Below, one piece after another: positions 1 through 43,070 of a stretch of DNA of 64,000 nucleotides. Within the stretch, counting starts at the first letter, position 1. The number at the start of each line of letters is the position of its first letter. Under the pieces are notes generated by a model, which was not told the DNA's origin, did not search any database, and worked only from the letters and a program-made list of their open reading frames with translations. The position numbers and the translations under genes are program-made. The stretch is from Prevotellaceae bacterium MN60 (lineage in GTDB: Bacteria > Bacteroidota > Bacteroidia > Bacteroidales > Bacteroidaceae), in contig FZQZ01000004.1 of the NCBI GenBank assembly GCA_900199555.1, positions 62,001 to 126,000 of the forward strand, given 5' to 3'.

Positions 1-2262
1 AAGTCACACTTTGATGTTGATGGCGATTATCTTGGCGATTATAGTCAGGCTGAGCGTTATCCAAATGTTGATTGGCAGGATGAGATGTTTAAGGAGTATA
101 CCTTATCTTATAATACGAACCTGAATATTTCTGGTGGTACCAAGTATGTGAAGTACTTCGTTGCATTCGACTTCCAGAATGAAGGTGATATGACCAAAAT
201 TTGGGATAACCACCAGGGATATGAGGGTGGTTATAGTTACAACCGTTTGAATGTACGTTCAAACTTGGACTTCCAGATTACCAAGACAACCCAGTTTAAG
301 GTTAACTTGGCTGGTTCTAATGCTCAGCAGAAGACTCCACGCTTTTATTATGGTAATAGTGGTGAGTTCTTCCAGCAGCAGAAGTGGGCTGGTGCATACG
401 GTATGGCGCCTAACCTCTTCCCTGTACAGTTCTCTGATGGATCTTGGGGATATTATCCTTTGGTTTCAAATATTGAGAACTCTCCTCGAAGCGTATCAAC
501 TTCAGGTTATGAGGTTCGCTCAATCACACGTACTTTTACTGACTTCACTTTGGAGCAGAACCTTGACTTTATTACCAAGGGCCTGATTGCTCGTGGTACT
601 ATCTCTTGGGATAACCAGTTTAATGAAACTGGTCGTGGTATCTCTGACTTGCACACCGTTAAGAATGCTTATATGCTTCCTGAGGATGGAAAGATTCTTT
701 ATGAGAATACCATTGATGATAACACTGGTTTTGATTTCTATGAGGAACGTGGCTGGAGTACTGATGGTGGTAATGTTGGTTCTACTAGTCGTGCAACTGA
801 AATGTCACTCCAGCTTTTCTGGGCTCGTCAGTTCGGTGATCACAACGTAACGCTGATGGGTAACTGGAAACGTCGTACCACTCAGGGAGGTACAAGTCTC
901 GAAGATCGTCGTGAGGACTGGGTATTCCGTACTACCTACGATTATAAGAGCAAGTATTTTGCTGAGTTCAATGGTGCTTACAACGGTTCACAGAAGTTTG
1001 CGAAAGACTATCGTTTTGGTTTCTTCTGCTCTGGTGCTGCAGGTTGGATGTTGTCTGAAGAGCCATTCATGAAGAAGTTGAAGGAGAAGAAAATCTTGGA
1101 TATGTTCAAGATTCGTGGTTCTATCGGTGAAATCGGTGATGATGCAGGTGGTACTGCCTTTGCGTATATGTCAACTTGGAATACAGCTGGCCCTTACGCT
1201 CTTACTCTGGATGGCTCAAACAGTCCTTTCCAAGGTTATACAGAGGCAACTATTGCTGTGCCTGACCTCCGTTGGGCAACCGTGCTGAAGAAGAACCTCG
1301 GTTTCGACTATGCTTTCCTTGGCGGTATGTTTGCAGGTAGCTTTGACTGGTTCCGTGATGACCGTTATGATATTTATATCAGTGGTGATGCTCGCGCTAT
1401 CCCTGCATTCTATGGTGCAAAGAAAAACCCTGATACCAATAAGGGTAAGATTAAGAACTCAGGTTTTGAGTTTGAACTTCGTTTCAATAAGGTACTGAAG
1501 AATGGTATGCGTTTCTGGGCAAATGCCAACTATACTTACGCACATAATACAATCCTCGAAAAGGATGACCCTCAGTTGATTCCTTCTTATCGTAAGGCCC
1601 AAGGCTATTCTCAGGGACAGTATGTTTCATTCATTGATAATGGCTTTATTAGTACTTATGATGAATTATATAGTTCACCTGCGCGCGAAAGAGATGATAA
1701 TCAGGTGCTCATCGGTGACCACTATATTGTAGACTTCAATGGTGACGGTATCGTTGATGAGACTAATGACCAGGCTCCTTATGGTTATACCGGTACTCCC
1801 GAACATACTTATAACGCAACTATCGGTTGGGAGTGGAAAGGCTTTAGCATGTTCGCTCAGCTTTATGGTGTAACTGGTGTTACTCGCGATGTAGGCCTAG
1901 CATCTTTCAATAATAAACTTCTTACCGTATATGATAATGGTACATGGTGGAATCCTGTAGATGGTAATGGTGCAGTTGTTGTTCCTCGTTTCACCACACA
2001 GGTTGCCTATAACGATGGTACTCAGTTCCTTTATGATGGTTCTTATTTCCGTCTGAAGAACGTGGAAATTGCATATACTTGGACAAAGGGCTGGATTAAG
2101 AAGCTTGGTTTCTCAAGCTTGAAGGTTTACGTAAATGGTAACAACCTCTTCTTGATTACCAAGATGCCTGATGACCGTGAGAGTAACTATGGATTTAGCG
2201 GTGGCGGTGGTGCATACCCAACCGTAAGACGTTATAACTTCGGTTTTAAGCTTAACTTATAA
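1..2262 (+). CDS. SusC-family TonB-dependent xylooligosaccharide transporter, 3' part (5' end outside window)
   Basis: The reading frame is open from base 1, so the gene starts upstream; 753 residues are visible of the roughly 1000 usual for SusC, and the signal peptide, N-terminal extension and plug are missing. The visible part is the outer-membrane beta-barrel: it opens with the SusC-typical YPNVDWQDEMFKE stretch, followed by alternating amphipathic strands, and ends in RRYNFGFKLNL with the terminal aromatic/leucine strand needed for barrel insertion. A SusD gene follows 14 bases later, and a second SusC/SusD pair follows that. This order, with a DUF1735-type lipoprotein and a GH10-like lipoprotein behind, corresponds to the xusA-xusE/xyn10C cluster of Prevotella and Bacteroides, so this is the xusA position. 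Family and role are secure; substrate (xylan oligosaccharides) is inferred from neighbours. Confidence 0.95.
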   Translation, partial: KSHFDVDGDYLGDYSQAERYPNVDWQDEMFKEYTLSYNTNLNISGGTKYVKYFVAFDFQNEGDMTKIWDNHQGYEGGYSYNRLNVRSNLDFQITKTTQFKVNLAGSNAQQKTPRFYYGNSGEFFQQQKWAGAYGMAPNLFPVQFSDGSWGYYPLVSNIENSPRSVSTSGYEVRSITRTFTDFTLEQNLDFITKGLIARGTISWDNQFNETGRGISDLHTVKNAYMLPEDGKILYENTIDDNTGFDFYEERGWSTDGGNVGSTSRATEMSLQLFWARQFGDHNVTLMGNWKRRTTQGGTSLEDRREDWVFRTTYDYKSKYFAEFNGAYNGSQKFAKDYRFGFFCSGAAGWMLSEEPFMKKLKEKKILDMFKIRGSIGEIGDDAGGTAFAYMSTWNTAGPYALTLDGSNSPFQGYTEATIAVPDLRWATVLKKNLGFDYAFLGGMFAGSFDWFRDDRYDIYISGDARAIPAFYGAKKNPDTNKGKIKNSGFEFELRFNKVLKNGMRFWANANYTYAHNTILEKDDPQLIPSYRKAQGYSQGQYVSFIDNGFISTYDELYSSPARERDDNQVLIGDHYIVDFNGDGIVDETNDQAPYGYTGTPEHTYNATIGWEWKGFSMFAQLYGVTGVTRDVGLASFNNKLLTVYDNGTWWNPVDGNGAVVVPRFTTQVAYNDGTQFLYDGSYFRLKNVEIAYTWTKGWIKKLGFSSLKVYVNGNNLFLITKMPDDRESNYGFSGGGGAYPTVRRYNFGFKLNL

Positions 2263-2276
2263 TAGCGTATTCTATC

Positions 2277-4301
2277 ATGAAATATAATAAAAACATAAAA
2301 TCCCTTTTGTGTGGTTCGCTGCTTCTTCTGGCAGGTGCATCTATCACATCATGTACCGACTGGCTTGATAGAGATCCTGAATCTATCGTAGAACCAGATG
2401 AGGCATTTAAAAACTACCGTAACTTCCAGGGATATATCGAGGAGATTTATAGTATGATCCCCGATAAGCAGAAGGTTAACTATTGTACTGCATGGAACTT
2501 TGGTGATGATGCCGTTCACAATCCTGAAGGCTATGCACACATGGACCATCAGGTTGACCTCGGTAACTATCGTAACTGGTACAACAACTCACAGTGCTGG
2601 TTGAATGGTTCCAGAAGCTCTCTGTGGAAAAATGCATGGCTGAGTATCCGTAAGTGTAACTTAGGTATCGAAAATATTAAGTCACTTGTAGGTACCGACG
2701 AAGAGCGTGACCTCTTGCTCGGACAGTTGTATTTCTTCCGCGCATGGTGGCATTTCGAACTGATGTGCTATTTTGGAGGTTTCCCATACATTGATCAGAC
2801 TTATGATCCTTCAAACATTCCCGAACTCCCTCGTCTTTCTTTCCAGGAATGTGCTGACCATTGTGCTGCAGACTTTGAAATGGCAGCAAATCTTCTTCCT
2901 AATGACCCTGAAGGTTGGGACGAGACATTGGCTGGTATGCAGACCTCTGGTAAGAATGACCTGCGTATCAACAAGTTTATGGCACTTTGCTACTTAGGTA
3001 AGTGCTACCTTTGGGCTGGTTCTCCGCTGATGAAGGAATTCGAGAAGACTAAGAATGGTGGTCATGCTCAGCTACTGGGTGCTAGCTCTAATGGCAAGAC
3101 CTATGACTATGATGTAGCCTATTGTAAGAAAGCTGCAGAGGTTCTTGGTAAGGCTCTCGATATGGTTAATAAGGGACAGGTTAGCTATAAACTGGCAGAA
3201 TATAAATATTCTAATATCTACGACCACGTGGCAGATGAGAAATCTGAGACTAACTACTCAGATATCTTCTATACAGTAAAGCAGAGCTGGAAGATGCCAG
3301 GTTCTTGTGAGGCTATCTTCCGTGGAGCCTTCCCTGGTGTCAATAGTGCTCCTTGGAACTGCGCTAAGCTTTTCGGCCCGAAGGTGGCTGGCCTCGTAGA
3401 TCATGATAACATTATTCACCATCCAACAGCCAATCTGATTGACCAATATGGTATGGCTAATGGTGAGCCTATTTATCTTGTTCAGAATGGTAAATTGGTG
3501 TATAACGAAGATTCAAAGTGGGATCCCGAGCATCCTTATAAGAATCGTGACCCACGTTTCTATCATGACATCGTATTTGATGGCTTCCACTATGTGCTTA
3601 GCACAGACGCACTGTCAGCAGCTCAGAAGAAACTCGAGTATTGCGACCTTTATACAGGTGGTGCCATGCGTGCTGTTGATAATGCAAGTAGCACAGGCTA
3701 TTTCATTCAGAAGTTGATTCCTCACCAGAATAATGAGGGTGATAAATGGTATGATTATGGTATTGCAGAGCAGAGCTATCTGCCTTACATGCGTCTGGCT
3801 GATGTCTATCTGATGTATGCTGAAGCAAGAACCGCATTCGCTACCAGTCCAATTGATCTCAAGACAAGAGATTTTTGCACAACTTTGTCTGCTGTAGAAG
3901 CTATTGATGCACTTCGTGACCGTGTAAACTCTATCGATTATCCAATGGAACACGTGCCAGCTAAGTACATTAACGTAAATTATGGTAATGGAACCAGCTT
4001 TATGGATATCGTTCGTAACGAGCGTGCTGTAGAATTGGCCTTTGAGGGCTTCCGCTGGTGTGACCTTCAGCGTTGGTTGCTCTTGACAGAGCCTCCATAC
4101 ACGGTAAAGTACTCTCATGAGTTTGAGCGTTTGGAGAAGGCTGAGTGGTTTAAGGATCATGATCCAAAAGATGCAAAGGTTGCTAACTTCCATAGCGAAC
4201 CGCTGATTACTCGTCCTTTAGGCTCAAAGCACTATTGGTTCCCACTTCCTGATAAGGAAACATATCTGTACGGAGCATATAAGCAGAATCCGGGATGGTA
4301 A
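2277..4301 (+). CDS. SusD-family surface glycan-binding lipoprotein (xusB position)
   Basis: 674 residues. The N-terminus is a lipoprotein signal with lipobox ASITSC and lipidation Cys26, followed by acidic residues typical of surface-exported Bacteroidota lipoproteins. SusD hallmarks include LGQLYFFRAWWHFEL in the first TPR-like helix pair, RNERAVELAFEGFRWCDLQRW near residue 580, and the C-terminal YWFPLPDKE...QNPGW signature. The protein is longer than the typical 500-600 residues, mainly through loops in the middle. SusD proteins form a lid over the SusC barrel and capture oligosaccharides. Its gene directly follows the first SusC and precedes the second SusC by 39 bases, so the four genes are very likely co-transcribed. 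Xylan specificity is inferred from the locus. Confidence 0.95.
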   Translation: MKYNKNIKSLLCGSLLLLAGASITSCTDWLDRDPESIVEPDEAFKNYRNFQGYIEEIYSMIPDKQKVNYCTAWNFGDDAVHNPEGYAHMDHQVDLGNYRNWYNNSQCWLNGSRSSLWKNAWLSIRKCNLGIENIKSLVGTDEERDLLLGQLYFFRAWWHFELMCYFGGFPYIDQTYDPSNIPELPRLSFQECADHCAADFEMAANLLPNDPEGWDETLAGMQTSGKNDLRINKFMALCYLGKCYLWAGSPLMKEFEKTKNGGHAQLLGASSNGKTYDYDVAYCKKAAEVLGKALDMVNKGQVSYKLAEYKYSNIYDHVADEKSETNYSDIFYTVKQSWKMPGSCEAIFRGAFPGVNSAPWNCAKLFGPKVAGLVDHDNIIHHPTANLIDQYGMANGEPIYLVQNGKLVYNEDSKWDPEHPYKNRDPRFYHDIVFDGFHYVLSTDALSAAQKKLEYCDLYTGGAMRAVDNASSTGYFIQKLIPHQNNEGDKWYDYGIAEQSYLPYMRLADVYLMYAEARTAFATSPIDLKTRDFCTTLSAVEAIDALRDRVNSIDYPMEHVPAKYINVNYGNGTSFMDIVRNERAVELAFEGFRWCDLQRWLLLTEPPYTVKYSHEFERLEKAEWFKDHDPKDAKVANFHSEPLITRPLGSKHYWFPLPDKETYLYGAYKQNPGW

Positions 4302-4340: not shown

Positions 4341-7328
4341 ATGAAAAATATTAAAACAAACATATTTCTCTTTGCCATGTGTGCTGTAGCACCTCTGGCG
4401 GTCAATGCTCAGACCGCTGAGGATGGTGATTCAGTAGTGGCAAAAAAGAAGGTCCATGTTGCTTTCCGCGACAAGGATGCCGACCATCTTCTTGGAGGTG
4501 TTTCCTATGTTGACATGGAAGAGCTGGCAAAGAAAGACTACACCATGAGTAGCCTTGAAGATTTGAATGGACTCGTTGGTGGTTGGAATGGCAACAACCT
4601 CTGGGGTATGGACAATGACCGTTTGGATAATAACGATAATAGCAACACGCCACTCGTTATTATCGATGGTGTGAAGCGCCCCTCTAACAACGTATTGCCT
4701 TCAGAAATTGAGCAGATTACTTTCCTGAAGGGCGCACAGGCTGTTTTACTCTATGGCTCTAAAGGCGCTAAAGGCGCTATCGTGATTACCACCAAGCGTG
4801 GTAAGGTAGATGGTCTGCAGGTTACTGCCAATGCCAACACCGGTTTTCACTTTGCAAAGGAATTCCCCGAGTATCTGGGCTCTGCAGAGTATATGACGCT
4901 TTATAATGAAGCTGCTATCAACGACGCTCTTTCCGCAGGTTCTCATTATAGTAACATGCTCGAAGGACCATATACCCAGCAGGATATTTATAACCATGCC
5001 GTAGGTGCTAATCCTTATCGTTACCCCAATATGAACTATTATTCAGACGAATATATTCGTAAAGCGTATAATCGTTCTGAGGCTACATTGGAGATTCAGG
5101 GTGGTGGTACACGTGCCCACTTCTATACAAATATCAACTACTATCGTGCAGAAGACCTCCTGAACTTCGGTAATGCAAAGGATAACTATACAGACCGTTT
5201 CAGTGTACGTGGTAATGTAGACCTTGTTGTTAATAAGTATATCAAGGGTTGGGCTAATGCAAGCGCTACTTTCTACAATGCTAACAAAAACAAGGGAGAT
5301 TTCTGGAAGGAAGCATCAACCATGCGTCCAAACTATCCTAGAAATGCTGCGATGCTGATTGATATTAATATGATAGATCCTTATGCCACTAAGGCATTAG
5401 CTACTCTTGGAAAGTCTCTCAATCTCCTTGGTGGAAGACTCTTCCCAAGTGGTACGAAAACAATCGACTCTAACTCAATCGCAGATGGCTATTTTGGTGG
5501 TACTTCAACAGACTACAGTCGTCAGTTCCAGTTTGATGCAGGTATTGATTATGATATGAACCAGTTTATCAAGGGTTTGTCTTTCAAGACACTGTTCTCT
5601 ATTGACTATGCTGCTAAGTACAGCCTCTCATACAACAATAAGTATGCCATCTATATTCCTATATGGAGTAACTATAACGGAGAGGATGCTATTGTGGGCT
5701 TGACACAGCAGAATGATGAAGTCGTAACGGGTAAATTGTCTTTCTCTAACTCATCATATCGCCAGACAATTACTTGGAATGGTCATTTTGACTATGAGAA
5801 TACTTTTGCAGGCAAGCATCATGTAACAGGTATGTTGCTCGCAAGTATGTACACGACTATTACCAGTGGTCAGTATCATCGTTATGCTAATGCGAACTTA
5901 GGTTTAGAGGCTGGTTATGACTATATGGGTCGTTATTTTGCCGAAGTAGGTTTGTCTGGTGTACATTCAGCTCGTCTTGCCGAAGGTCATCGTGAAGCGC
6001 TTTCTCATTCGTTCACACTCGGATGGAATCTTGCAAAAGAGAATTTCTTGAAAGATACCTTCGTGGATGATTTGATGCTGAGTGCATCTTACAGCAACCT
6101 TAGTGAAGATGCGGATGTCTATATGCTTGTTAATGGTAGCGAAAAGTATTTTAATCTCTATAAATCTCTTTGGGAAAAAGGTGGCGGTAGCTTCACATGG
6201 GGCGATGGCGCATATTCTACCGATCGCACCTATTCTACTGCAGGTTTGAATTCTGATCTTGACTTTATTCATCGTAAAGAGTTCTCTGCAACACTTCGTG
6301 GTTCGTTCTTTAACAAACTGATTAGTGCAGAGTTTACTTATTTTAATACGAATATGGATGGCTTCATCGTTCAGAACCCCACTATGTTCCCATCACACTT
6401 GTCTAGTGGTCTCGGTGTTTCGACCTTTAAGCCCGCTATCAACAATGATATTCAAAACCGTAAAGGTCTTGATTTCAGCGTAACTGCTCAAAAACAATTG
6501 GGTAAAGTTCACGCTACGTTGGGTGTTGTTGGTACTTATCTGACCACCAAGTGGAGTAAGAAAGATGAGATTCCAGCATATGAGAACTTGAAGGAAGAAG
6601 GACATTCTTTGGATGCTATTCGTGGTTATAAGTGCATTGGCTTCTATACCATTGATGACTTTAATGTCACTACGGATGAGAAGACTGGTAAGGTTAAGTA
6701 TAATTTGAAGGATGGACTTCCCAAGTCAAGAATCGGTGGTACGATCATGCCTGGTGACTTGAAGTATGAAAATGTTAATGGCGACGATGTAATTGACAAG
6801 AACGATATGGTTGATCTTGGCAAGTCTGGTACGTATGGTGCACCTCTTACACTGGGTGTGAACCTCACACTGAAGTATAAGAACTGGACACTCTTCATGG
6901 TAGGTAATGGTCAGTTCGGTGCTTATGCGCTCAGAAACAATAGCTATTATTACATGCAGGGAGACGACAAGTACTCAGTGAATGCTCGTGATCGCATACA
7001 ATATACTTATGATGAGGACGGTATCATCAATGGATTTGTAAATCCCAATGCGTCTCATCCTCGTCTGACAACTGCGAACTCGGCAAATAATGCTGCTGCA
7101 TCTACTTTCTGGCTCTACAGCACAGATCGTTTCAACCTTCGTAAGGTGCAGCTTACTTATGATTTCCCCGCAGAGATGTTCAAGGGAACTCCCGTCAAGG
7201 CGCTCTCTGTTTATGTAAACGGAAACGATCTCCTTACGATTTCTAAGAATCGTAAGATCATGGAGACTACTGTTGGCTATGCACCACAGACTCGTTTCTA
7301 TAATCTCGGTGTTAAGGTAACCCTCTAA
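4341..7328 (+). CDS. SusC-family TonB-dependent transporter lacking the N-terminal extension (xusC position)
   Basis: 995 residues, complete. A signal peptide (about residues 1-23, ending AVNA-Q) is followed almost directly by the plug domain, recognised by PLVIIDGVKRP, IEQITFLKGAQAVLLYGSKG and GAIVITTKRGK (about residues 105-155). The carboxypeptidase-regulatory-like N-terminal extension found in most SusC proteins is absent, and the SLQGKVAGV-type plug stretch is replaced by LEDLNGLVGGWNG. The rest is barrel, ending YNLGVKVTL. The cognate SusD starts 12 bases downstream. Known role of the family is TonB-driven import of oligosaccharides across the outer membrane; xylan as substrate is inferred from context. 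The short N-terminus may mean different coupling to TonB. Confidence 0.94.
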   Translation: MKNIKTNIFLFAMCAVAPLAVNAQTAEDGDSVVAKKKVHVAFRDKDADHLLGGVSYVDMEELAKKDYTMSSLEDLNGLVGGWNGNNLWGMDNDRLDNNDNSNTPLVIIDGVKRPSNNVLPSEIEQITFLKGAQAVLLYGSKGAKGAIVITTKRGKVDGLQVTANANTGFHFAKEFPEYLGSAEYMTLYNEAAINDALSAGSHYSNMLEGPYTQQDIYNHAVGANPYRYPNMNYYSDEYIRKAYNRSEATLEIQGGGTRAHFYTNINYYRAEDLLNFGNAKDNYTDRFSVRGNVDLVVNKYIKGWANASATFYNANKNKGDFWKEASTMRPNYPRNAAMLIDINMIDPYATKALATLGKSLNLLGGRLFPSGTKTIDSNSIADGYFGGTSTDYSRQFQFDAGIDYDMNQFIKGLSFKTLFSIDYAAKYSLSYNNKYAIYIPIWSNYNGEDAIVGLTQQNDEVVTGKLSFSNSSYRQTITWNGHFDYENTFAGKHHVTGMLLASMYTTITSGQYHRYANANLGLEAGYDYMGRYFAEVGLSGVHSARLAEGHREALSHSFTLGWNLAKENFLKDTFVDDLMLSASYSNLSEDADVYMLVNGSEKYFNLYKSLWEKGGGSFTWGDGAYSTDRTYSTAGLNSDLDFIHRKEFSATLRGSFFNKLISAEFTYFNTNMDGFIVQNPTMFPSHLSSGLGVSTFKPAINNDIQNRKGLDFSVTAQKQLGKVHATLGVVGTYLTTKWSKKDEIPAYENLKEEGHSLDAIRGYKCIGFYTIDDFNVTTDEKTGKVKYNLKDGLPKSRIGGTIMPGDLKYENVNGDDVIDKNDMVDLGKSGTYGAPLTLGVNLTLKYKNWTLFMVGNGQFGAYALRNNSYYYMQGDDKYSVNARDRIQYTYDEDGIINGFVNPNASHPRLTTANSANNAAASTFWLYSTDRFNLRKVQLTYDFPAEMFKGTPVKALSVYVNGNDLLTISKNRKIMETTVGYAPQTRFYNLGVKVTL

Positions 7329-7340
7329 AAAAGTAAGACA

Positions 7341-9170
7341 ATGAAGACAAAAAATATTGTATTGTATTTCATCGCGCTCCTCGCTTTCTGCTCATGTAAC
7401 GATATGTTCGAGCCAGCAGAAGAGAATGTCCGACAGTTGGATGATATGACAGAGGAGTCTAAATATGCGCATGGTCTGCTGATGTATGGCTATGATCGTC
7501 TTCCTTATATTACGACCACCACAACTGATGTTGCTACTGATGATGCTGTCACCAATGATAAGAACAGCAACTATATGTATATGGCAACTGGTAGGTGGGC
7601 AGCTGACGATAATCCTATGTCTCAATGGGATAAATGTAAGGATGGTATCCAGTATGTTAATCTCTTCCTGACCATTGTTGATAAAGTAAAATGGGCTCCA
7701 AGTGCAGCCTCAAAGCAACAGATGTTTATTGATCGCCTGACTGGTGAGGCTTATGGCCTGCGTGCACTTCTCTATTATTACCTGTTGCAGGCTCATGGTG
7801 GCTATGCAGATGATGGTGTACTCTATGGCGTGCCTCTGCTGACTCAGCCTGAAGATGGTAGCTCAGACTTCAATCAGCCACGTGCAACTTTTGCAGATTG
7901 TGTGAAGCAGATCTTCGAAGATTGTGATAAAGCAATGGAATTGCTTCCTGCTGACTATGTTGATATTAAAAGTACTGACGAGATCCCTGCAAAGTATCAG
8001 AAACTTGGCGCTATTGTATCTGGATATAACTTGGTATTCGGTGCGCGTTCAAAGAACCTGATGTCAGCTAAGATTGCTGAGGCAATCAAGGCACAGGTTG
8101 CTCTTCTTGCTGCAAGTCCTGCATTCCGCGCTCAGAGTGGTGTAACATCTGAGGAAGCTGCAAAGCTTTGCGCTAATGTGCTTACACGTATTGGTGGAAT
8201 GGATGGCTTTGATAAGGATGGTAACATCAACTGGTATATGAATGCTACTAAGCTGAACAACAAAGCCGAATTTGATGAGATTCTTTGGCGTGAAGATTAT
8301 CGTCTGAATGCAGATCAAGAAAAGGAGAACTTCCCACCATCATTGTATGGTAGCGGTCGCGTAAATCCTTCGCAGAATCTTGTTGATGCTTTCCCAATGC
8401 GTAGTGGTAAGCCTATTACAGAAGCAACAGATTACAACCCCAATAATCCTTATGAAGGTCGTGATCCACGTCTTGAAAAGACAGTGCTTGTGAATGGTAC
8501 GAATTTCAGAAAGGTTGATGTTGTCACAGGAACTTATGCAAACTCTAAGGGTGAAAATCTTGACAATCTTAACAAAGAAACAACTTCAACCCGCACGGGT
8601 TATTATCTGAGAAAGTTGCTTCGTGATGATGTAAATCCATTGTCAAGTTCGCTGATAGAAAAACAGCATGTTTATCCACGTATCCGTTATACAGAGATCT
8701 TCTTGGCTTACGCAGAAGCTGCAAACGATGCATGGGGTCCAAAGGTTGATGGAGCTGGTGTTGGCTTTACCGCATACGATGTAATCAAGGCTATCCGTCA
8801 GCGTGCAGGACTTGGAACTGATGCTATTGGAATGCCACTTCCACAAGGTGATGAGTATCTTGAGGAGTGCGCAGGTAGTCAGGAAAAGATGACAGATCTG
8901 ATTCGCAATGAACGTCGTATCGAACTCTGTTTTGAAAATAAGCGTTTCTGGGATCTCCGTCGTTGGATGCTACCACTTAATGAGCCCATTAAGGGTATGA
9001 AGATTGAGAAGATTGACTCTGAAAAGGATCCAACTCCTGACAATCTCACTTATACCGTTATTGATGTGGAGACTCGTGACTATGACAACTCTTATCAGTG
9101 CTATGGTCCTATTCCAAAGGGTGAAGTGCTCAAATGGAGCAACCTGAAACAGAATAAGGGTTGGAGATAA
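7341..9170 (+). CDS. SusD-family surface glycan-binding lipoprotein (xusD position)
   Basis: 609 residues. The signal ends FCSC with probable lipidation at Cys19; the lipobox is weak (Phe at -3), but position and context support a lipoprotein. SusD features are LTGEAYGLRALLYYYLLQAHGG, the PRATFADCVKQIFEDCDKA helix, LIRNERRIELCFENKRFWDLRRW near residue 520, and the terminal YGPIPKGEVLKWSNLKQNKGW. It pairs with the preceding SusC (12 bases apart), giving two complete transport pairs in tandem. Inferred role is binding of a second size or decoration class of xylooligosaccharide at the cell surface. Confidence 0.95.
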   Translation: MKTKNIVLYFIALLAFCSCNDMFEPAEENVRQLDDMTEESKYAHGLLMYGYDRLPYITTTTTDVATDDAVTNDKNSNYMYMATGRWAADDNPMSQWDKCKDGIQYVNLFLTIVDKVKWAPSAASKQQMFIDRLTGEAYGLRALLYYYLLQAHGGYADDGVLYGVPLLTQPEDGSSDFNQPRATFADCVKQIFEDCDKAMELLPADYVDIKSTDEIPAKYQKLGAIVSGYNLVFGARSKNLMSAKIAEAIKAQVALLAASPAFRAQSGVTSEEAAKLCANVLTRIGGMDGFDKDGNINWYMNATKLNNKAEFDEILWREDYRLNADQEKENFPPSLYGSGRVNPSQNLVDAFPMRSGKPITEATDYNPNNPYEGRDPRLEKTVLVNGTNFRKVDVVTGTYANSKGENLDNLNKETTSTRTGYYLRKLLRDDVNPLSSSLIEKQHVYPRIRYTEIFLAYAEAANDAWGPKVDGAGVGFTAYDVIKAIRQRAGLGTDAIGMPLPQGDEYLEECAGSQEKMTDLIRNERRIELCFENKRFWDLRRWMLPLNEPIKGMKIEKIDSEKDPTPDNLTYTVIDVETRDYDNSYQCYGPIPKGEVLKWSNLKQNKGWR

Positions 9171-9198
9171 TTTGATAAATTGATAATTGAAAATTACA

Positions 9199-10335
9199 AT
9201 GATGAAATTGAAAAAATATATATATGGTGTGGCCTTGGGAGCTCTCTCTCTTGCTTATACGTCATGTTATAATGCAGATAAGGACTTCCCAGACTATGAA
9301 GGAGGTACAACTGCCTACTTCGCCTATCAGTTCCCTGTACGTACCCTCGTACTTGGTAATGATATCTATGACAATGCACTTGACAATGCGCATAAGTGCC
9401 GTATCTGGGCTACGATGGGTGGTGCCTACGGCGGTCGTAGCGCATATGTTGATTTTGTCGTTGACCCGACACTTTGTGATAACCTTTGGTTTGTTGATGA
9501 GGGTGGAAACGCATCTTATCGTGTAACTCCTCTGCCTGCTGACTATTATACATTGTCATCTAACGTTATTCCTTACAATGGTGACGCTCGTGGCTATGTA
9601 GAGGTGCAGTTCACAGATAAATTCTTTGAAGATGAAAATGCTATCAACGATTACTATGTGATTCCTTTGTTGATGACGAAGACAACAGGTATTGACCATA
9701 TTCTTACTGGTTCAAGACGTGAGGGATGTGAAGATGCTTCTCGTACGAACACAGAGTTGTGGGATGTATTGGCAAAGGATTATGTACTTTATTGCGTGAA
9801 GTATATGAACCCATGGCAGGGTAAGTATATCCGTCGTGGTGTTGACGAGGTAACAGAGAAGGGTAAGACAACAACTGTTGTTCGTAAGGATTTCTCTTTG
9901 GTTAATACCGACCTTGAACACTATACCGAGAATCCTGTAAACCAGAACGATGAGGTTTGTGGTATCACCACTAAGAATATGAAGCAGTCTATCTTCCCTG
10001 TTTCATTCAAGACCTCTTCTGGTGCATCTATTGCATGTAACCTCATTCTGACATTCGACGGTAATAATTGTACTATCTCTACCGAGGATGCAAATGTAGA
10101 AGCTACCGGTACTGGTGAATTTATTGCTAAGGGTACTGAGCGCAAAGAATATAAGGACTACCAGTGGGGAAGCAACAATGGACAGCCTGTTCAGCGTGAC
10201 ATTCTCCGTTTGGCTTACAACGTGAACTTTGCGGATAAGAACATTCAGGTAGCTACCAACGATACACTGGTTGTTCAGACTCGTGAGTCAAACAAGAAGG
10301 TGTTCTTCTCACCCAAATACGAAATTAAAGATTAA
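9199..10335 (+). CDS. DUF1735/DUF5627-type surface lipoprotein (xusE position)
   Basis: 378 residues from the ATG at 9199; an upstream TTG at 9187 is in frame but gives no better signal peptide. The lipoprotein signal ends LAYTSC. The N-terminal half (FPDYEGGTTAYFAYQFPVR onward, including the PADYYTLSSNVIPYNGD strand pair) resembles DUF1735. The C-terminal half, with GTGEFIAKGTERKEYKDYQW, resembles DUF5627. Proteins of this kind sit between SusD and the terminal surface protein in xylan loci (XusE) and are thought to bind glycan at the cell surface; no catalytic residues are evident. The stop codon at 10333-10335 overlaps the ribosome binding site of the next gene. Fold assignment is by pattern recall only. 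Confidence 0.8.
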   Translation: MMKLKKYIYGVALGALSLAYTSCYNADKDFPDYEGGTTAYFAYQFPVRTLVLGNDIYDNALDNAHKCRIWATMGGAYGGRSAYVDFVVDPTLCDNLWFVDEGGNASYRVTPLPADYYTLSSNVIPYNGDARGYVEVQFTDKFFEDENAINDYYVIPLLMTKTTGIDHILTGSRREGCEDASRTNTELWDVLAKDYVLYCVKYMNPWQGKYIRRGVDEVTEKGKTTTVVRKDFSLVNTDLEHYTENPVNQNDEVCGITTKNMKQSIFPVSFKTSSGASIACNLILTFDGNNCTISTEDANVEATGTGEFIAKGTERKEYKDYQWGSNNGQPVQRDILRLAYNVNFADKNIQVATNDTLVVQTRESNKKVFFSPKYEIKD

Positions 10336-10349: not shown

Positions 10350-12002
10350 ATGAATAAGATTTTTAGAAACGGTCTCTTGATGTTGGCTGCAGGAGCTCTT
10401 GTGGTGTCTTGTGCTGACTATAATGATCTTGGTGGTTTCAAAGCAGATCCAGATCCTTCTTTCGTCGAGCCCTACAAGAACTTGGCTCCCGTAAAGTCAT
10501 ACCTTAATAGCGAGAAGTATCCTAACATGTCTTTGGGTACAATGATTAAGGTGGCGGATTTCAATAAGCAGGAGCGTCCTCATGCTGCGGCTATGACCAA
10601 CTTCCATAGTGTGGCATTTGGTACAGACTTGATGTCAGGCAAGATTGTCAACGAGAAAGGTATTATGAACTTCCTTGATATGATGGATTTGTTAAAACAT
10701 GCCGAGGAAATCAATGCCAATATCTATGGTAGCCCAATTGTTGCCAATGCAAATCAGGCCGACGCATGGCTGAAATATCTGACTTCTCCGATAGAAATAC
10801 CGGTAGACTATGTTGAAGGAAAGAGTGTAAACTTCAACGAGATGGAAACTGGTGCATACACTGATGGAGAAGGAAAGACTGCTTCTATCGTAAATTACGA
10901 TAATCAGAATGCGTTGAAAATCAATAGTAATACAAGCGTTCGTATTATTGAAGGTTTCGATGTAGATCCATTGGCTAAATACACTATTACATTCTATGCA
11001 AAAGCCGACAAAGATGCTACTTTTAATGTTGTCTTCTCTGGCAAGAAAGTTGATGGAACTGTTGACGGAAAGTGGCAGATCAAGAAGGGTAATTGGAATA
11101 AGGTTGTTGTAGAAAGTCAGAGCGCAGAAGATGCGACTGAGGGCTATTTGAGAATAGAGAATACTCGTACAACTCATGTCTATATCCAAAAGGTACAGGT
11201 TGGTTACTATCCAGACAACCATCGTCCACAGACTGATGTTGAGAAGAGTGACACTATCAAGTATGCACTCAACACTTGGTGCGATGCATTTATGAAATAT
11301 AATGAAGGTCGTATCAAGGTCTTTGATCTGATTGATGAGCCAATTGATTCGAAGGCAACGCTGGGTAATGGAATGTATGATTTGAAGCACGCAGCTGAAG
11401 ACAATATCTTCTGGCAAGATATCTTGGGTAGCGAGAACTATGCTCCAGCCGTATCTAAGGTTGCTAGTGAGGCTTATGAGAAGTATCAGGGTGATCCTAC
11501 TCAGTTGAAGTTCTTTATCAGCGAGAAGGACCTTGATGATTCAAAGAAGTTGGAAAGCCTGATGTACTGGATAAACATCTGGACTGCTAAGGGCGCTAAG
11601 ATTGATGGCATCAATGCCAAGTTGAATCTCAGTTATAGTGAGGATGCAGATATCCAAGCAGCTAATGAGGCTACTGTGGTTACTTTCTTAGAAAACTTGG
11701 CTGCAACAGGCAAGTTGATTCGCCTTTCTAATTTCGATATCAAGTATGTGGATGCTGAAGGTGCAAGTGTAACAGCAGCAACTATTACAGACGCACAACG
11801 CCAGAAGTTAGCAGACTATTATGCTTTCGTTATCAAGAGCTATATGAACAAGATTCCTAATGCACAGCAGGCTGGTATTTGTAAAGGCAATATGGCTGAT
11901 ACAGCTGATCCTGTAGGTCTTTGGTCTATTGATAGTGAGAGTAAGGATTGGGTACGTACTGCTACCTATAAAGCATTCTGTGACGCTCTGAGCGGAGAAT
12001 AA
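10350..12002 (+). CDS. GH10-fold surface lipoprotein with inserted CBM and degenerate active site; probable xylan-binding pseudoenzyme
   Basis: 550 residues from the ATG at 10350 (an ATG lies two codons upstream). Lipobox VVSC. A GH10 framework can be traced: FHSVAFGTD (enzymes: FNSITAEND), then an insert of about 150 residues (roughly 150-290) resembling a CBM4/22 jelly roll, then VFDLIDEP (enzymes: WDVVNE), LKFFISEKD (LFYNDYN), GAKIDGINAK and IRLSNFDI (IHVTELDI). The acid/base Glu is kept (codon 11337-11339), but the nucleophile Glu is Asn (codon 11730-11732), and the HCLxWHSQ loop and the conserved subsite -1 residues are lost. The CBM-in-GH10 architecture and the position match Xyn10C, which is an active surface xylanase in related species. 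Inference: this homologue binds xylan at the cell surface rather than cutting it. Confidence 0.82.
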   Translation: MNKIFRNGLLMLAAGALVVSCADYNDLGGFKADPDPSFVEPYKNLAPVKSYLNSEKYPNMSLGTMIKVADFNKQERPHAAAMTNFHSVAFGTDLMSGKIVNEKGIMNFLDMMDLLKHAEEINANIYGSPIVANANQADAWLKYLTSPIEIPVDYVEGKSVNFNEMETGAYTDGEGKTASIVNYDNQNALKINSNTSVRIIEGFDVDPLAKYTITFYAKADKDATFNVVFSGKKVDGTVDGKWQIKKGNWNKVVVESQSAEDATEGYLRIENTRTTHVYIQKVQVGYYPDNHRPQTDVEKSDTIKYALNTWCDAFMKYNEGRIKVFDLIDEPIDSKATLGNGMYDLKHAAEDNIFWQDILGSENYAPAVSKVASEAYEKYQGDPTQLKFFISEKDLDDSKKLESLMYWINIWTAKGAKIDGINAKLNLSYSEDADIQAANEATVVTFLENLAATGKLIRLSNFDIKYVDAEGASVTAATITDAQRQKLADYYAFVIKSYMNKIPNAQQAGICKGNMADTADPVGLWSIDSESKDWVRTATYKAFCDALSGE

Positions 12003-12140: not shown

Positions 12141-14375
12141 ATGAAGAAATTATTTACACTTGTTGCTCTCTTGGCAGTGTTCTTGGGAGCAAAAGCACAG
12201 CAGTGGGAAGAGGTCTATTCAATAGACTACTCAACCTACAGTGGTTTTCCATTCTATGTAATGGGTTATGTACCTGAGTGGTTTGATGGCGTAATGGTCG
12301 ACGAGGGTAATGGTTACAAATGTATCAAAGTGGATGATGCTGAGGAACCTGGTGACCATATCGTTAAAACAAACGATGGTACTCAGTACTATAGAGTAGA
12401 AAATGCTTCTAGCGATTTCCACCAGTATTTTATCGCTGATGGTATTGATTGCGTATTGGACGATAGTTATAAGGTTGTCGCACAGGTTAAGGCTTCTCAG
12501 GCTGTTACAATCAACGTCAACATGGGTTGGGGTTGGTCTAATGGCGAGCAGGCTAGTGCTTCAGTAAGCATCCCAGCTGCAAGCGACTTCCAGACTGTAG
12601 AATGGGAATATAGCGGTATCGGTGGTACTCGTTGTAATCTCGTTGCACAGCAGCAGACAACAACACAGATTGAATGGAAGAGCCTGAAGGTTTATCACCA
12701 GAAGGGTAATGAGCGTCCTGTTACTTGGCAGGAGTGGCTCACCAGCGATGGTAAGCCTGTTGTCGTTGGAGAAAAGGTACAGGATATTGCTACTTGGAGA
12801 GGTAACGCCGAGACTCCATGGACTGCAGAGCAGAAGGAAACTAAGTTTAATGATCAGGAAAAGAACTTCTTGATTTGTGCTTGGTCTAAGGAGAAGGGTG
12901 TAAACATGAATGAGAACGATGGCTGGGATCCATTCCCCGCTAGCATTGAAGAAGATCCCGATGATCCTACTAACCACGTATTTGTATGCCATGGTCAGCC
13001 TGCAACCTCTGAAGGTGATGCTTCTAAATGGGATAACCAGTTCTGGATTGAGTCTCCAAGCTCTTGGAAGGAAGGTACAACGATTAAGGTTCACTTCCGT
13101 TATAGATGTAATCAGGAGAGCGTAAAGACCGCTACTCAGATTCACAAGCAGAACCCATCTGATTACCTCCACTATGAGGCTATTGGTGACGTTACTTTCA
13201 CCAATCAGTGGCAGGACTTTGACAAGACCATCTCATTTAATGGTTCACAGAATGGCGGTTGGTCTATCGCATTCAACTTGAATGATGTTGACAAGTCTGC
13301 TATCGACTTCTATTTCGATGATCTCTCTTGGCAGACCATGAAACTTGACGAGGGCTTCTTCGTTGCTTCTGCAAACTCTGATAAGGGCATTGAGTATGTA
13401 TTCGATACCGCTACAGAATTTGTAACTGATCCTAATGATCCTACTGTTGTTGTTGCAACTGTTGGTACAGAGGGTAAGGAAGATACATGGGTAAATGAGG
13501 TTATGATCTCTACTGTTCGTGGTAATACTGCAGCTTTCAAGGGTGCAACTATTAAACTTACTAGCTCTGCTACTGATGGCGACTGGTTGGACTACACTGA
13601 GGCAAGTCTTGCAAAGATTAAGCTCCCTGCTGCTGGTGTATGGAAGATTTCTATTGCTCCAGAGGATAAGCAAATCTGCTTCGATAAGATTGAAGGTGAG
13701 GAAGAAAAAGCACCAGTTGATATTATAACTAATCCTTCTGTAGTAACTGTAAATGCTCTTGAAAGAGATTGGCTCTCTGCTGGCCAGGATGGTAATCCTC
13801 GTGAAGATGAGGTTGGAACAGGTGAAGCTTGGGACAACCAGTTCTGGATTGTTGCTAACCGCGTTCTTGATGCTGGTGAAGAGACAGTTGTTGAGTTTGA
13901 CTATGTAGCAACTAAGGAAGCAAAGGCCACTACACAGTCTCACAAAGGACTTGGTGGTTATATCCACTATGTAGCTATTGGTGATGTAAACTTCACTACT
14001 GAGGAGAAGCATTTCACATATGATTTCACTATTCCTGCAGAATGTGCTGGTAAGGATATGAATTCTATCGCATTTAACTTGGCTGAGATCAAGGATGCTA
14101 ACGACTATACCTTCAAGAACTTTAAGTGGTACCTGAAGAATAGCGAGGAAGGTAAAACTACTGAGAACTTGATTAATGCAGAAGGTGGCAAAAACTTTGG
14201 CTTCAAGATTGTAGGTGGACAGGCTCAATACGTTGAGGATCCTGCTTCTGCTATCAACAATGTAGTTACCAATAAGACTGCTTCTAACGTAACTTACAAC
14301 CTCGCTGGTCAGCGCGTTTCTAAGGACTTCAAGGGTATCGTTGTTAAGGACGGTAAGAAGTTCATGAATAAGTAA
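12141..14375 (+). CDS. Secreted multi-module protein of unknown function, probably carbohydrate-binding, with C-terminal sorting tail
   Basis: 744 residues; signal peptide 1-19 ending GAKA-Q. I recognise no catalytic family. Two clearly related modules begin WDNQFWI at W297 and W564 and share IHYVAIGDV/LHYEAIGDV, a following FT strand, and SIAFNL near their ends, suggesting jelly-roll CBM4/9-like folds. A third, more divergent copy may lie at about residues 20-195 (GWGWSNG..., VEWEYSGIGG). The last about 35 residues (YNLAGQRVSKDFKGIVVKDG) match the C-terminal tail type seen on several enzymes here and resemble a type IX secretion signal. The gene stands alone between a hairpin and a terminator, downstream of the binding proteins and upstream of the esterase/GH115 unit, which suggests a secreted xylan-binding role. 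Function is inference. Confidence 0.72.
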   Translation: MKKLFTLVALLAVFLGAKAQQWEEVYSIDYSTYSGFPFYVMGYVPEWFDGVMVDEGNGYKCIKVDDAEEPGDHIVKTNDGTQYYRVENASSDFHQYFIADGIDCVLDDSYKVVAQVKASQAVTINVNMGWGWSNGEQASASVSIPAASDFQTVEWEYSGIGGTRCNLVAQQQTTTQIEWKSLKVYHQKGNERPVTWQEWLTSDGKPVVVGEKVQDIATWRGNAETPWTAEQKETKFNDQEKNFLICAWSKEKGVNMNENDGWDPFPASIEEDPDDPTNHVFVCHGQPATSEGDASKWDNQFWIESPSSWKEGTTIKVHFRYRCNQESVKTATQIHKQNPSDYLHYEAIGDVTFTNQWQDFDKTISFNGSQNGGWSIAFNLNDVDKSAIDFYFDDLSWQTMKLDEGFFVASANSDKGIEYVFDTATEFVTDPNDPTVVVATVGTEGKEDTWVNEVMISTVRGNTAAFKGATIKLTSSATDGDWLDYTEASLAKIKLPAAGVWKISIAPEDKQICFDKIEGEEEKAPVDIITNPSVVTVNALERDWLSAGQDGNPREDEVGTGEAWDNQFWIVANRVLDAGEETVVEFDYVATKEAKATTQSHKGLGGYIHYVAIGDVNFTTEEKHFTYDFTIPAECAGKDMNSIAFNLAEIKDANDYTFKNFKWYLKNSEEGKTTENLINAEGGKNFGFKIVGGQAQYVEDPASAINNVVTNKTASNVTYNLAGQRVSKDFKGIVVKDGKKFMNK

Positions 14376-27988: not shown

Positions 27989-30199
<2,211 letters not shown>

Positions 30200-40834: not shown

Positions 40835-43054
40835 ATGAAAACACTTAAACGCAATTTGCTAATGATGGCGGCTTGTCTGTGCATTCTGCCTGCATCTGCT
40901 CAGTTGTCATCTAATCCTAACAAGTTTTTAGGTAACATCACAACGAGAGGTAATGTAGAACCGGGAGGCGGTGTACCTAAGTATTATACCCTATGGAATC
41001 AGATTACTTGTGAAAATGAATCTAAGTGGTCTTCTGTAGAAGGTAGTCGTGGTACTTTTAACTGGGGTGGGGCTAATAATGCATTCAACTATGCAAAGCA
41101 ACACAACTTTACCTACAAGTTTCATGCTTTGGTATGGGGTGCTCAGTATCCTAGCTGGTTGGAAAACCTGAGCGCTAAAGACCGCTTTTCAGCAATGACC
41201 AATTGGTTTGATCATGCAAAGTCTCAGTACAACACACTACCTATGATTGATGTGGTAAATGAGGCAGTAGGTATGCACCAGCAGGGTAATCCTATGATGA
41301 AGGAAACTCTTGGCGGTGGCGGAAAGACAGGCTATGACTGGCTTATTAAGGCTTTTGAAATGGCCTACGAACGTTGGCCAGATGCCATTCTGATTTACAA
41401 TGACTATAACTCTATCCGTTGGGATTTGAATAATTATATTACCTTAGTGCAGACGCTGCGTGATGCCGGCGCTCCTATCGATGCCTATGGTAACCAATCA
41501 CATGAATTGAGTGATATCAGCTTGGACGAGTTGGAAAGGGTGTTGAAGCAACAGCAAGATGCACTAAAAATGCCAATGTTCTCTACAGAGCTGGATATAG
41601 ACATTGCCGATGATACTAAGCAGAAGTTACAGTATCAGAAAGTATTGCCTGCTTTTTGGGAAAAGCCTTATTGCGCTGGTGTTACCCTTTGGGGACATGT
41701 GCTTGGCGCTACATGGGTTGACAACTCAGGCCTTTATAGAAATGGCGAAGAACGTCCTGCTATGACTTGGATTAAAGAGTATATGCAGACTGATGCAGCC
41801 AAGAACGCAGCAGGTCCGCTCCCTGGTACAAAGAAAGAGGCTTCTATCTATATTCGTCCTGCTGCTCAGAAGGTTGCAAAGGATGATGTGTTACCTATTA
41901 AGGTGCGAGCACGCTTAGCTACCAAGTCCATCGAAAAAGTTGATTTCTATGTGAATGATGAATTGGTTAAGACGATGACGGAGGAACCTTACATTGTTGA
42001 ATATACGGCAGACAAGGTCGGTGATTGTTTCACGAAGGCTGTAGTTACTGCTACAGATGGTTCAACATATGAACGCTATGGCTATTTCAAAGTAGCAAGA
42101 GGAACGAAACGCTCACCTTATAATGAAGAAGTCCCTCAGCTTCCTGGTACAATTAATACTACAGAATACGATAATGGCCTTTCTGGTGTAGCTTATTATG
42201 ATGCATCTCGTACATTGACATCAACTAAAGATGGTCAATGGATGGAGTATACAATTGACGTTACAGAAGAAGGCTATTATACGATGGATGCGGAGGTCGC
42301 AGCTTCAAAGACTGGTGGTATGTTCCATTTAGCAGAATATTCTTTAGACAATCTTAATTTTCTCACGGACTATATAGATGTGCCAAATACAGGTGGCAAT
42401 TCAAACTTCCAAATGGTGCATTGTCCAATAAAGGTATATCTGACGGCAGGTCGTCACGTATTTACATTCCTTGTTGATAAAGGCGGTTTCTATGTCAAGA
42501 GTCTAAACTTTGTGCATACGCCAACCTTTAGCTTGCCTGGAATAGTTCAAGCAGAAGACTTTTGTGAGGGAGGTGATGGCGTTGATGTAATTAATGGTAA
42601 TGGCGGCTATGTCGTTTGTATTGATAATGGTGAGTGGATGGACTATTCTGTAAACATCATAACACCCGGTAAATATTCTTACGAGGCTACAGTTTCATCG
42701 GTTGTTGATGGCGCCAAGTTTTCTATGGAGTTAGTTTATAGTGATGGCACGACTAAGAGTCTTGTACCTGTTAGCGTACCCAATACGGGCTCAAAGGATG
42801 TTTATGAGGTGAAGACTGGTAAGATTAGAAATACAATTGCTGTTGATGGCCTTCAGAAGTTGCGCATTACAAGTACGGCTGGAAGCTGCAATATTGACAA
42901 TGTGAAGTTTGTCTGCACTGAGCCTGCAAGTGGTATCAATACGACTGTAGCAGATGATGATTTAAATGCGCCTACTTATAATCTCATGGGAATTCCTGTC
43001 AATGCCGATTACCATGGTATCGTGATTAAGAATGGTAAAAAAATGATTAAGTAA
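40835..43054 (+). CDS. GH10 endo-xylanase with Ig-like and two CBM6-like modules and a C-terminal sorting tail
   Basis: 739 residues; signal peptide MKTLKRNLLMMAACLCILPASA. The GH10 domain (about 25-325) is intact, with ENESKW, KFHALVWGAQYPSW, acid/base Glu143 in IDVVNEA, IYNDYN, nucleophile Glu252 in STELDID and LWGHVLGATW. The N-terminal half is shorter than in classical GH10 enzymes. Next are an Ig-like domain (about 340-425, VDFYVNDELVKTM), a first CBM6-like module (about 435-565, DGQWMEYTIDV) and a second (about 570-695, IVQAEDFCEGG and GEWMDYSVNI). The tail (YNLMGIPVNADYHGIVIKNG) resembles a type IX secretion signal, so surface or extracellular location is likely. Two-gene unit with the CE6 gene behind. 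Confidence 0.92.
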   Translation: MKTLKRNLLMMAACLCILPASAQLSSNPNKFLGNITTRGNVEPGGGVPKYYTLWNQITCENESKWSSVEGSRGTFNWGGANNAFNYAKQHNFTYKFHALVWGAQYPSWLENLSAKDRFSAMTNWFDHAKSQYNTLPMIDVVNEAVGMHQQGNPMMKETLGGGGKTGYDWLIKAFEMAYERWPDAILIYNDYNSIRWDLNNYITLVQTLRDAGAPIDAYGNQSHELSDISLDELERVLKQQQDALKMPMFSTELDIDIADDTKQKLQYQKVLPAFWEKPYCAGVTLWGHVLGATWVDNSGLYRNGEERPAMTWIKEYMQTDAAKNAAGPLPGTKKEASIYIRPAAQKVAKDDVLPIKVRARLATKSIEKVDFYVNDELVKTMTEEPYIVEYTADKVGDCFTKAVVTATDGSTYERYGYFKVARGTKRSPYNEEVPQLPGTINTTEYDNGLSGVAYYDASRTLTSTKDGQWMEYTIDVTEEGYYTMDAEVAASKTGGMFHLAEYSLDNLNFLTDYIDVPNTGGNSNFQMVHCPIKVYLTAGRHVFTFLVDKGGFYVKSLNFVHTPTFSLPGIVQAEDFCEGGDGVDVINGNGGYVVCIDNGEWMDYSVNIITPGKYSYEATVSSVVDGAKFSMELVYSDGTTKSLVPVSVPNTGSKDVYEVKTGKIRNTIAVDGLQKLRITSTAGSCNIDNVKFVCTEPASGINTTVADDDLNAPTYNLMGIPVNADYHGIVIKNGKKMIK

Positions 43055-43070
43055 AAGAATGGTCAATAAA

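Follow-up and report, generated by a model that had tools for sequence, protein, structure and literature searches.

A conserved GH10-fold pseudoenzyme in the Xyn10C position of a putative xylan-uptake operon of a Prevotellaceae bacterium

The stretch of DNA analysed here (the window) comprises 64,000 nucleotides from Prevotellaceae bacterium MN60 (assembly GCA_900199555.1, contig FZQZ01000004.1, positions 62,001 to 126,000 of the forward strand). Its first genes lie on one strand and encode two SusC-SusD pairs and a DUF5627 protein, followed by a GH10-like lipoprotein and a large multi-domain protein:

85..2262, + strand: SusC-like transporter 1, probably cut by the start of the window (homologous across the compared loci, and longer there)
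2277..4301, + strand: SusD-like protein 1, named from its place and from homologues across loci
4341..7328, + strand: SusC-like transporter 2 (Pfam Plug; neighbour comparisons)
7341..9170, + strand: SusD-like protein 2 (Pfam SusD_RagB, E 1.6e-48)
9187..10335, + strand: DUF5627 / BT_3987-like_N protein (Pfam), homologue of the neighbour of BACOVA_03431
10344..12002, + strand: GH10-fold pseudoenzyme with a lipoprotein signal, 552 aa (open reading frame; likely start Met at 10350)
10410..10412, + strand: lipobox Cys23 (VVSC followed by ADYN), the predicted lipidation site
10476..10793, + strand: GH10 barrel, first part, residues 45-150 (model secondary structure, alignment)
10728..10748, + strand: GSPIVAN in place of GHTLAWH, with the conserved His and Trp lost
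10794..11222, + strand: single CBM-type beta-sandwich insert, residues 151-293 (model of residues 152-293, pLDDT 90.9)
11223..11999, + strand: GH10 barrel, second part, residues 294-552 (Pfam match, model)
11337..11339, + strand: Glu332, the retained acid/base Glu (FDLIDE)
11730..11732, + strand: Asn463 at the nucleophile position (SNFDI), codon AAT
12141..14375, + strand: multi-domain protein of 744 aa, containing modules that match the second CBM found in Xyn10C-type enzymes by homology

The start of the GH10-like protein at 10350, as given in an initial annotation of the window, agrees with the relatives, in which the corresponding Met3 is invariant (10 aligned sequences) and marks a conserved start; Cys23 is likewise invariant in the 10. 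The acidic residues after Cys23 resemble what we take to be a surface-export signal, and the protein is predicted to be lipidated at this residue and exported to the cell surface. The Pfam GH10 profile matches residues 301-503 (E 7.6e-12, 45.5 bits against a cut-off of 22.1), and CBM profiles gave sub-threshold matches only. A structure prediction superposed on GH10 xylanases had been proposed in the initial annotation; the AlphaFold2 model, with 43 aligned sequences as input (pLDDT 88.3), found its best structural match in Cellvibrio Xyn10C (1us2/1us3; Z 33.7, rmsd 2.7 over 326 residues), and all 50 best structural rows were GH10 xylanases or GH10-based designs. With a profile score above the cut-off and a barrel matching GH10 structures, the protein belongs to GH10 by both sequence and fold.

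The residues by which an active GH10 enzyme would be recognized are largely replaced. In the alignment, the nucleophile motif ISELDM of active relatives reads LSNFDI in the window protein, WDVVNE reads FDLIDE, NDYNL reads SEKDL and IGTQMH reads INAKLN (QMH to KLN), while QWC..SGWR is represented by KGN, the SGWR loop (the Trp loop beside the active site) being deleted. The His and Trp of GHTLAWH, the Asn of NE, the Gln and His of QMH, and the Trp of QWC and SGWR are thus not kept. Residues matching the replaced motifs form subsites in a Prevotella copri GH10 model, as presented in part of PMC8631079. The initial annotation had already read the Glu-to-Asn change at codon 11730-11732, the altered Trp and Asn of WDVVNE and the loss of a HCLxWHSQ loop, and its reading was confirmed; in the alignment, GHTLAWH is replaced by GSPIVAN. 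A point absent from it is that the acid/base Glu332 is kept. It was also right that these changes are no reading error, with Asn at the nucleophile position in 83/83 homologues chosen by similarity, and the alignment places no other Glu there. A sequencing error at the nucleophile codon is ruled out by the same 83 relatives. The statement that the other three GH10 proteins of the window keep all motifs is correct for those at 28010-30199 and 46738-49284 and incorrect for the one at 40835-43054, a GH10-CBM6 protein that keeps both catalytic Glu, yet has IDVVNE and FHALVWG. Together with the window protein and one on contig 17, these make up the five GH10 matches in the genome.

A precedent for such a protein is BACOVA_03431 from PUL-XylL of Bacteroides ovatus, for which Rogowski and colleagues showed in 2015 that it is a GH10 protein without activity that lies at the surface and binds xylan (sections of PMC4491172). 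Judged by its sequence, the window protein appears to be of the same kind, with the nucleophile lost and the predicted glycone site disrupted, and we infer that it has no xylanase activity. The retained Glu332 and the GH10 profile score would also fit a protein that remains an active xylanase and uses a different residue as its nucleophile, which we regard as highly improbable in view of the invariant Asn and the loss of other conserved active-site residues; furthermore, the B. ovatus counterpart, whose losses are comparable, showed no activity (PMC4491172).

The window protein has 83 distinct homologues that are at least 59.9% identical to it, and the next sequence is at 36%, which sets them apart as a discrete group; the family was drawn by similarity and not by the Asn, and the same 83 rows came out as with an Asn-based definition. 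Among the 83, Asn463, Phe327, Ser130 and Glu394 are each found in 83 and Lys426 in 82, Glu332 is Glu in 81, Asp in 1 and Gly in 1, and Asp465 and Lys514 are fixed in the 81/81 full-length rows. In a protein search of 251 genomes of the host's family, 54 had matches and 10 carried the window type, namely the window's own genome and nine with proteins at 63–69% identity. A scan of named species genomes yielded 100 relatives, of which the best 80 are 60–71% identical to the window protein. The record titles of these best 80 name Prevotella, Prevotellaceae, Bacteroidaceae or Bacteroidales, except for one 'uncultured bacterium'; a ruminant or forestomach source is named in 21, another 39 carry the RUG label, presumably for rumen uncultured genome, and 20 give no source. 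Across 72 sequences, the 25 most closely related pairs have dN/dS values of 0.07–0.20, although dS exceeds 1 in many of them, which demonstrates purifying selection; together with the intact frame, the same values rule out a decayed pseudogene. By these sequence comparisons, the window protein belongs to a pseudoenzyme family that is maintained in Prevotellaceae and their near relatives and is represented mainly by records of ruminant origin.

The gene neighbourhood is conserved to a similar extent. Among the named loci, which are the best 80 of the 100 relatives from the scan, a DUF5627 protein is encoded by the nearest recognized upstream gene in 78 (the other 2 begin at the pseudoenzyme gene, at contig ends), the full SusC-SusD-SusC-SusD-DUF5627 order is present in 69, 10 further contigs beginning too far downstream for it to be seen, and the nearest recognized downstream gene is a homologue of the open reading frame at 12141-14375 in all 80. 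The placement 'next to SusD' given in the initial annotation needs a small correction, as SusD is followed by the DUF5627 protein and only then by the pseudoenzyme. Its central claim, that a GH10 pseudoenzyme occupies the Xyn10C slot, has good support from the shared operon position, from purifying selection and from the conservation of the Glu-to-Asn change among relatives (83/83). Relatives with intact motifs occupy the equivalent place, directly after a DUF5627 protein, in 16 of 27 such loci covered, and no DUF5627 homologue was found beside them in the other 11, some of which lie at contig ends. In 9 of the 10 pseudoenzyme genomes, some of them incomplete, there was no other Xyn10C-family match at E<=1e-10. 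An intact Xyn10C-type GH10 gene follows the CBM-module gene downstream of the pseudoenzyme in 2 of the 80 named loci (L152, 14106-16427; L165, 13985-16327), and coexistence of the two is therefore possible.

In the unannotated 744-aa product of the downstream gene, residues 558-672 match the second CBM of L027 (E 1.4e-22) and residues 292-400 match L042 (E 1.8e-18). The CBM function may have passed to this separate, adjacent protein. A similar tail (YxLxGxxV...GxxIKxGKKxxxK) ends the proteins at 12141-14375, 40835-43054, 43059-44570 and 46738-49284, and resembles what we take to be type IX secretion tails; NCBIfam gave no type IX tail match in the suspected secreted proteins of the window, and two PorV-family proteins score over the cut-off in the genome.

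For the insert of the pseudoenzyme (residues 152-293), the closest solved structure is CBM1 of BiXyn10A (4mgs/4qpw; Z 14.2, rmsd 2.2 over 121-122 residues), and in Xyn10C-type enzymes such CBMs sit between strand 3 and helix 3 of the barrel (as outlined in sections of PMC7848910). A MAFFT alignment of the insert with active CBMs was poor, and a profile of 39 active inserts was used instead, which matched 56 of 81 window-type inserts at E<=10 (best 3.8e-12) and none of 13 B. ovatus-type inserts at the same threshold. The insert is thus homologous to the CBM of active Xyn10C-type enzymes and lies in the same insertion region. The initial annotation stated that the CBM insertion is kept, which is true of the insert and its Xyn10C-type CBM fold, but in an admittedly weak insert alignment none of the 81 inserts has a Trp at either position aligned with the Trp motifs of active CBMs. 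Near the first of these positions a Tyr or Phe is found in 18 of the 81, and at the second the nine residues after the conserved Phe231 lack an aromatic in all 81. In Pm25, a Xyn10C-type relative, mutation of the first-motif tyrosine abolishes binding and mutation of the second-motif tyrosine or Trp weakens it, according to passages of PMC7848910; the Pm25 motif positions were matched to the window-type inserts by eye. A loose Y-x-x-Q pattern like the first binding motif of active CBMs is present in 48 of the 81 inserts, so that the insert may itself be a binder; in the window insert, the pattern lies on an earlier strand, approximately 10 residues before the aligned Trp position. As the barrel subsites are replaced and the insert has no such Trp, xylan binding is not predicted from any known site.

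Across the family, mean conservation is 0.81–0.85 in the barrel against 0.68 in the insert, which varies more than any other part of the mature protein. On the catalytic face, 55 of 94 positions are invariant at the 95% level or above, against 50 of 129 in the helices (Fisher p 0.004); the same count in 40 active relatives, a more divergent set, gave 34 of 94 against 16 of 129. The preference for face over helix is thus stronger in active relatives, and the tendency is not particular to the pseudoenzyme family. At 28 barrel positions, at least 95% of the pseudoenzymes share one residue where at least 80% of the 40 active relatives have another; 16 of these 28 lie on the catalytic face, which places the old active site under new constraint. 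Residues kept there from active relatives are D328, E332 and D465, and those newly fixed in the family are D331, E394, N424, K426, N463, K514 and N516. From this pattern, the former catalytic face is most likely the candidate contact, rather than the CBM-type insert, with these kept and new residues as the candidate contact residues.

The constraint on this face also bears on two other readings. One is a changed reaction, in which Glu332, together with the new Asn463, Glu394 and the lysines, would act on a different bond or on a decorated sugar. The near-invariance of Glu332 (81/83) and the fixation of Glu394 (83/83), Asp465 and Lys514 (both 81/81) would suit it, yet Glu332 is replaced by Asp or Gly in 2 of 83, the nucleophile position is without a carboxylate and the Trp-bearing loop next to the active site is missing, and we judge this reading to be very unlikely. 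The other is a structural or docking subunit, a dead barrel that binds no glycan and holds the complex together or orients the SusD and DUF5627 proteins. This would be consistent with the replaced xylan-contact motifs of the barrel and the lost Trp positions of the insert, and with the conservation of the barrel helices, which also reaches high values (0.70–0.97). Non-binding proteins moreover exist in such operons, as the B. ovatus DUF5627 protein BACOVA_03430 bound none of the xylans tested in the experiments reported in PMC4491172. Against it, invariant positions are more frequent on the catalytic face than in the helices, which points to a ligand site, and the B. ovatus counterpart binds xylan (same report, sections on BACOVA_03431); a purely structural role consequently seems unlikely, if less so than a changed reaction.

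The best reading, with BACOVA_03431 as precedent, is in our analysis a xylanase converted into a surface glycan-binding protein. Based on the position, the fold and the B. ovatus precedent, we consider it likely that a dead GH10 lipoprotein has replaced Xyn10C in a xylan-uptake operon of the order SusC-SusD-SusC-SusD-DUF5627 and that, from the hydrolase slot of the outer-membrane SusCD complex, it would hold or present xylan chains, or a decoration on them, uncut. Backbone cleavage would be left to the other GH10 enzymes of the genome, and a dead GH10 in this slot could keep a docking and presentation role while dropping the cutting. In two systems of B. thetaiotaomicron, a surface hydrolase and a glycan-binding lipoprotein are found together on SusCD (described in parts of PMC7618045).

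Among 149 Bacteroides genomes searched, 14 have a relative at E<=1e-60. In 12 loci covered, the nucleophile position is Asp in 10 and Glu in L178, and L177 is intact. At locus L168, the DUF5627 neighbour is identical over 322 residues to PDB 3n91, which we take to be BACOVA_03430. The gene after it encodes a GH10-like protein that carries the motifs VSDLSM and WNIIGNP, and GH30 and GH98 come next. L168 was identified as the BACOVA_03431 locus because its gene order matches the one given in PMC4491172 and because of the identity to 3n91. The Bacteroides homologue L178 (7236-9530) keeps the nucleophile Glu with most other motifs lost and is possibly an intermediate toward the B. ovatus-type pseudoenzyme. 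In one Bacteroides genome, a B. ovatus-type gene is found in three pieces, one of them with internal stops (L084-L086; G299 contig 85, 106578-108792).

Whether the two pseudoenzyme types have one origin or two was addressed with trees of the barrel and of the neighbouring genes. The barrel trees included 13 of the 83 window-type rows, leaving out 4 fragments and 6 near-copies of active enzymes. Each type formed a clade (100/100), with long stems of 2.03 and 1.33 changes per column; a tree joining the window and B. ovatus types was not rejected (p-AU 0.445) and the two were joined in 230 of 300 bootstrap trees. With motif columns and outgroup removed, the tree joining them came out ahead (p-AU 0.749). 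The barrel sequence is not decisive and leans, if anything, to a single clade of both types. The neighbour trees, quick trees with one support value, were built from SusC2, SusD2 and the DUF5627 protein and held 44 of 47 rows, without two near-copies and one locus with a fragment; one further locus had been skipped earlier for lack of genes. The neighbouring genes group the window type with the active loci L048, L049 and L064, group the B. ovatus type with the active loci L177 and L054, and reject one pseudoenzyme clade (p 0.0006; p 0.0014 with L177 allowed in). The GH10 of L177 (3144-5399) looks intact, and its SusC, SusD and DUF5627 neighbours nest among B. ovatus-type loci, which could reflect either a gene replacement or the ancestral state. 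The substitutions of the two types differ at most motifs; Asn at 424 is common to both, with Gly in 38 of 40 active relatives. Taken together, two independent losses are weakly favoured; the conflict between barrel and neighbouring genes could be explained by transfer of the single gene between loci, and long-branch effects may bear on the question.

More tentatively, it is possible, though somewhat doubtful, that xylanase slots have been made non-catalytic more than once independently, and that in the present lineage the active site was rebuilt as a charged pocket (new Lys426, Lys514 and Glu394, kept Glu332, and Asn463), perhaps for acidic or ester decorations of xylan, with the gripping of polysaccharide by CBMs moved to the protein at 12141-14375. 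If the two lineages are independent, the Xyn10C slot itself would favour conversion, which the neighbour-gene trees suggest and do not prove. In either case, the family provides a test case for a hydrolase turning into a non-catalytic subunit of an uptake complex. There is also a practical consequence: the window protein and its relative L148 both score above the Pfam GH10 cut-off, so that a protein not expected to cut is probably being counted among the xylanases of rumen genomes.

The initial annotation presented the conversion as a new observation, but an inactive, xylan-binding GH10 protein had been published in 2015 (PMC4491172) by authors who stated in the relevant section that no other natural inactive GH10 had been described by then. 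For the Prevotella lineage, we found no description in the passages of literature covered, on inactive GH10 proteins, surface glycan binding and Prevotella Xyn10C, which besides the papers cited above included PMC7815789, PMC11784079 and PMC4855328. The present data widen the single published example, BACOVA_03431, to a large conserved family from another lineage and host environment.

Among known systems, the surface xylanases of the Xyn10C / BACOVA_04390 / BiXyn10A type share the slot, the barrel and a CBM insertion of the same fold with the window protein; they differ in that both catalytic Glu and the conserved motifs are present in the relatives with intact motifs. In Pm25, xylan binding is largely driven by the CBMs (sections of PMC7848910). 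Chitin-binding lectins of the GH18 type, which lack catalytic residues, are likewise a case of a hydrolase fold kept for binding, although from another GH family, and the comparison with an inactive GH10 is made in PMC4491172. Closest of all is BACOVA_03431 itself, a lipoprotein of GH10 fold with the nucleophile lost and the glycone site disrupted, encoded in the matching slot, where it likewise follows two SusC-SusD pairs and then the DUF5627 gene. The two proteins share 26% sequence identity over the matched barrel part. BACOVA_03431 has Asp at the nucleophile and Asn at the acid/base position (VSDLSM, WNIIGNP), in contrast to Asn and a kept Glu in the window protein; its insert consists of two repeated modules (read by eye) instead of one, and it is followed by GH30 and GH98 instead of a CBM-module protein. 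The kind of protein has thus been known since 2015, and the lineage found here differs in carrying other substitutions at the same sites and a single insert.
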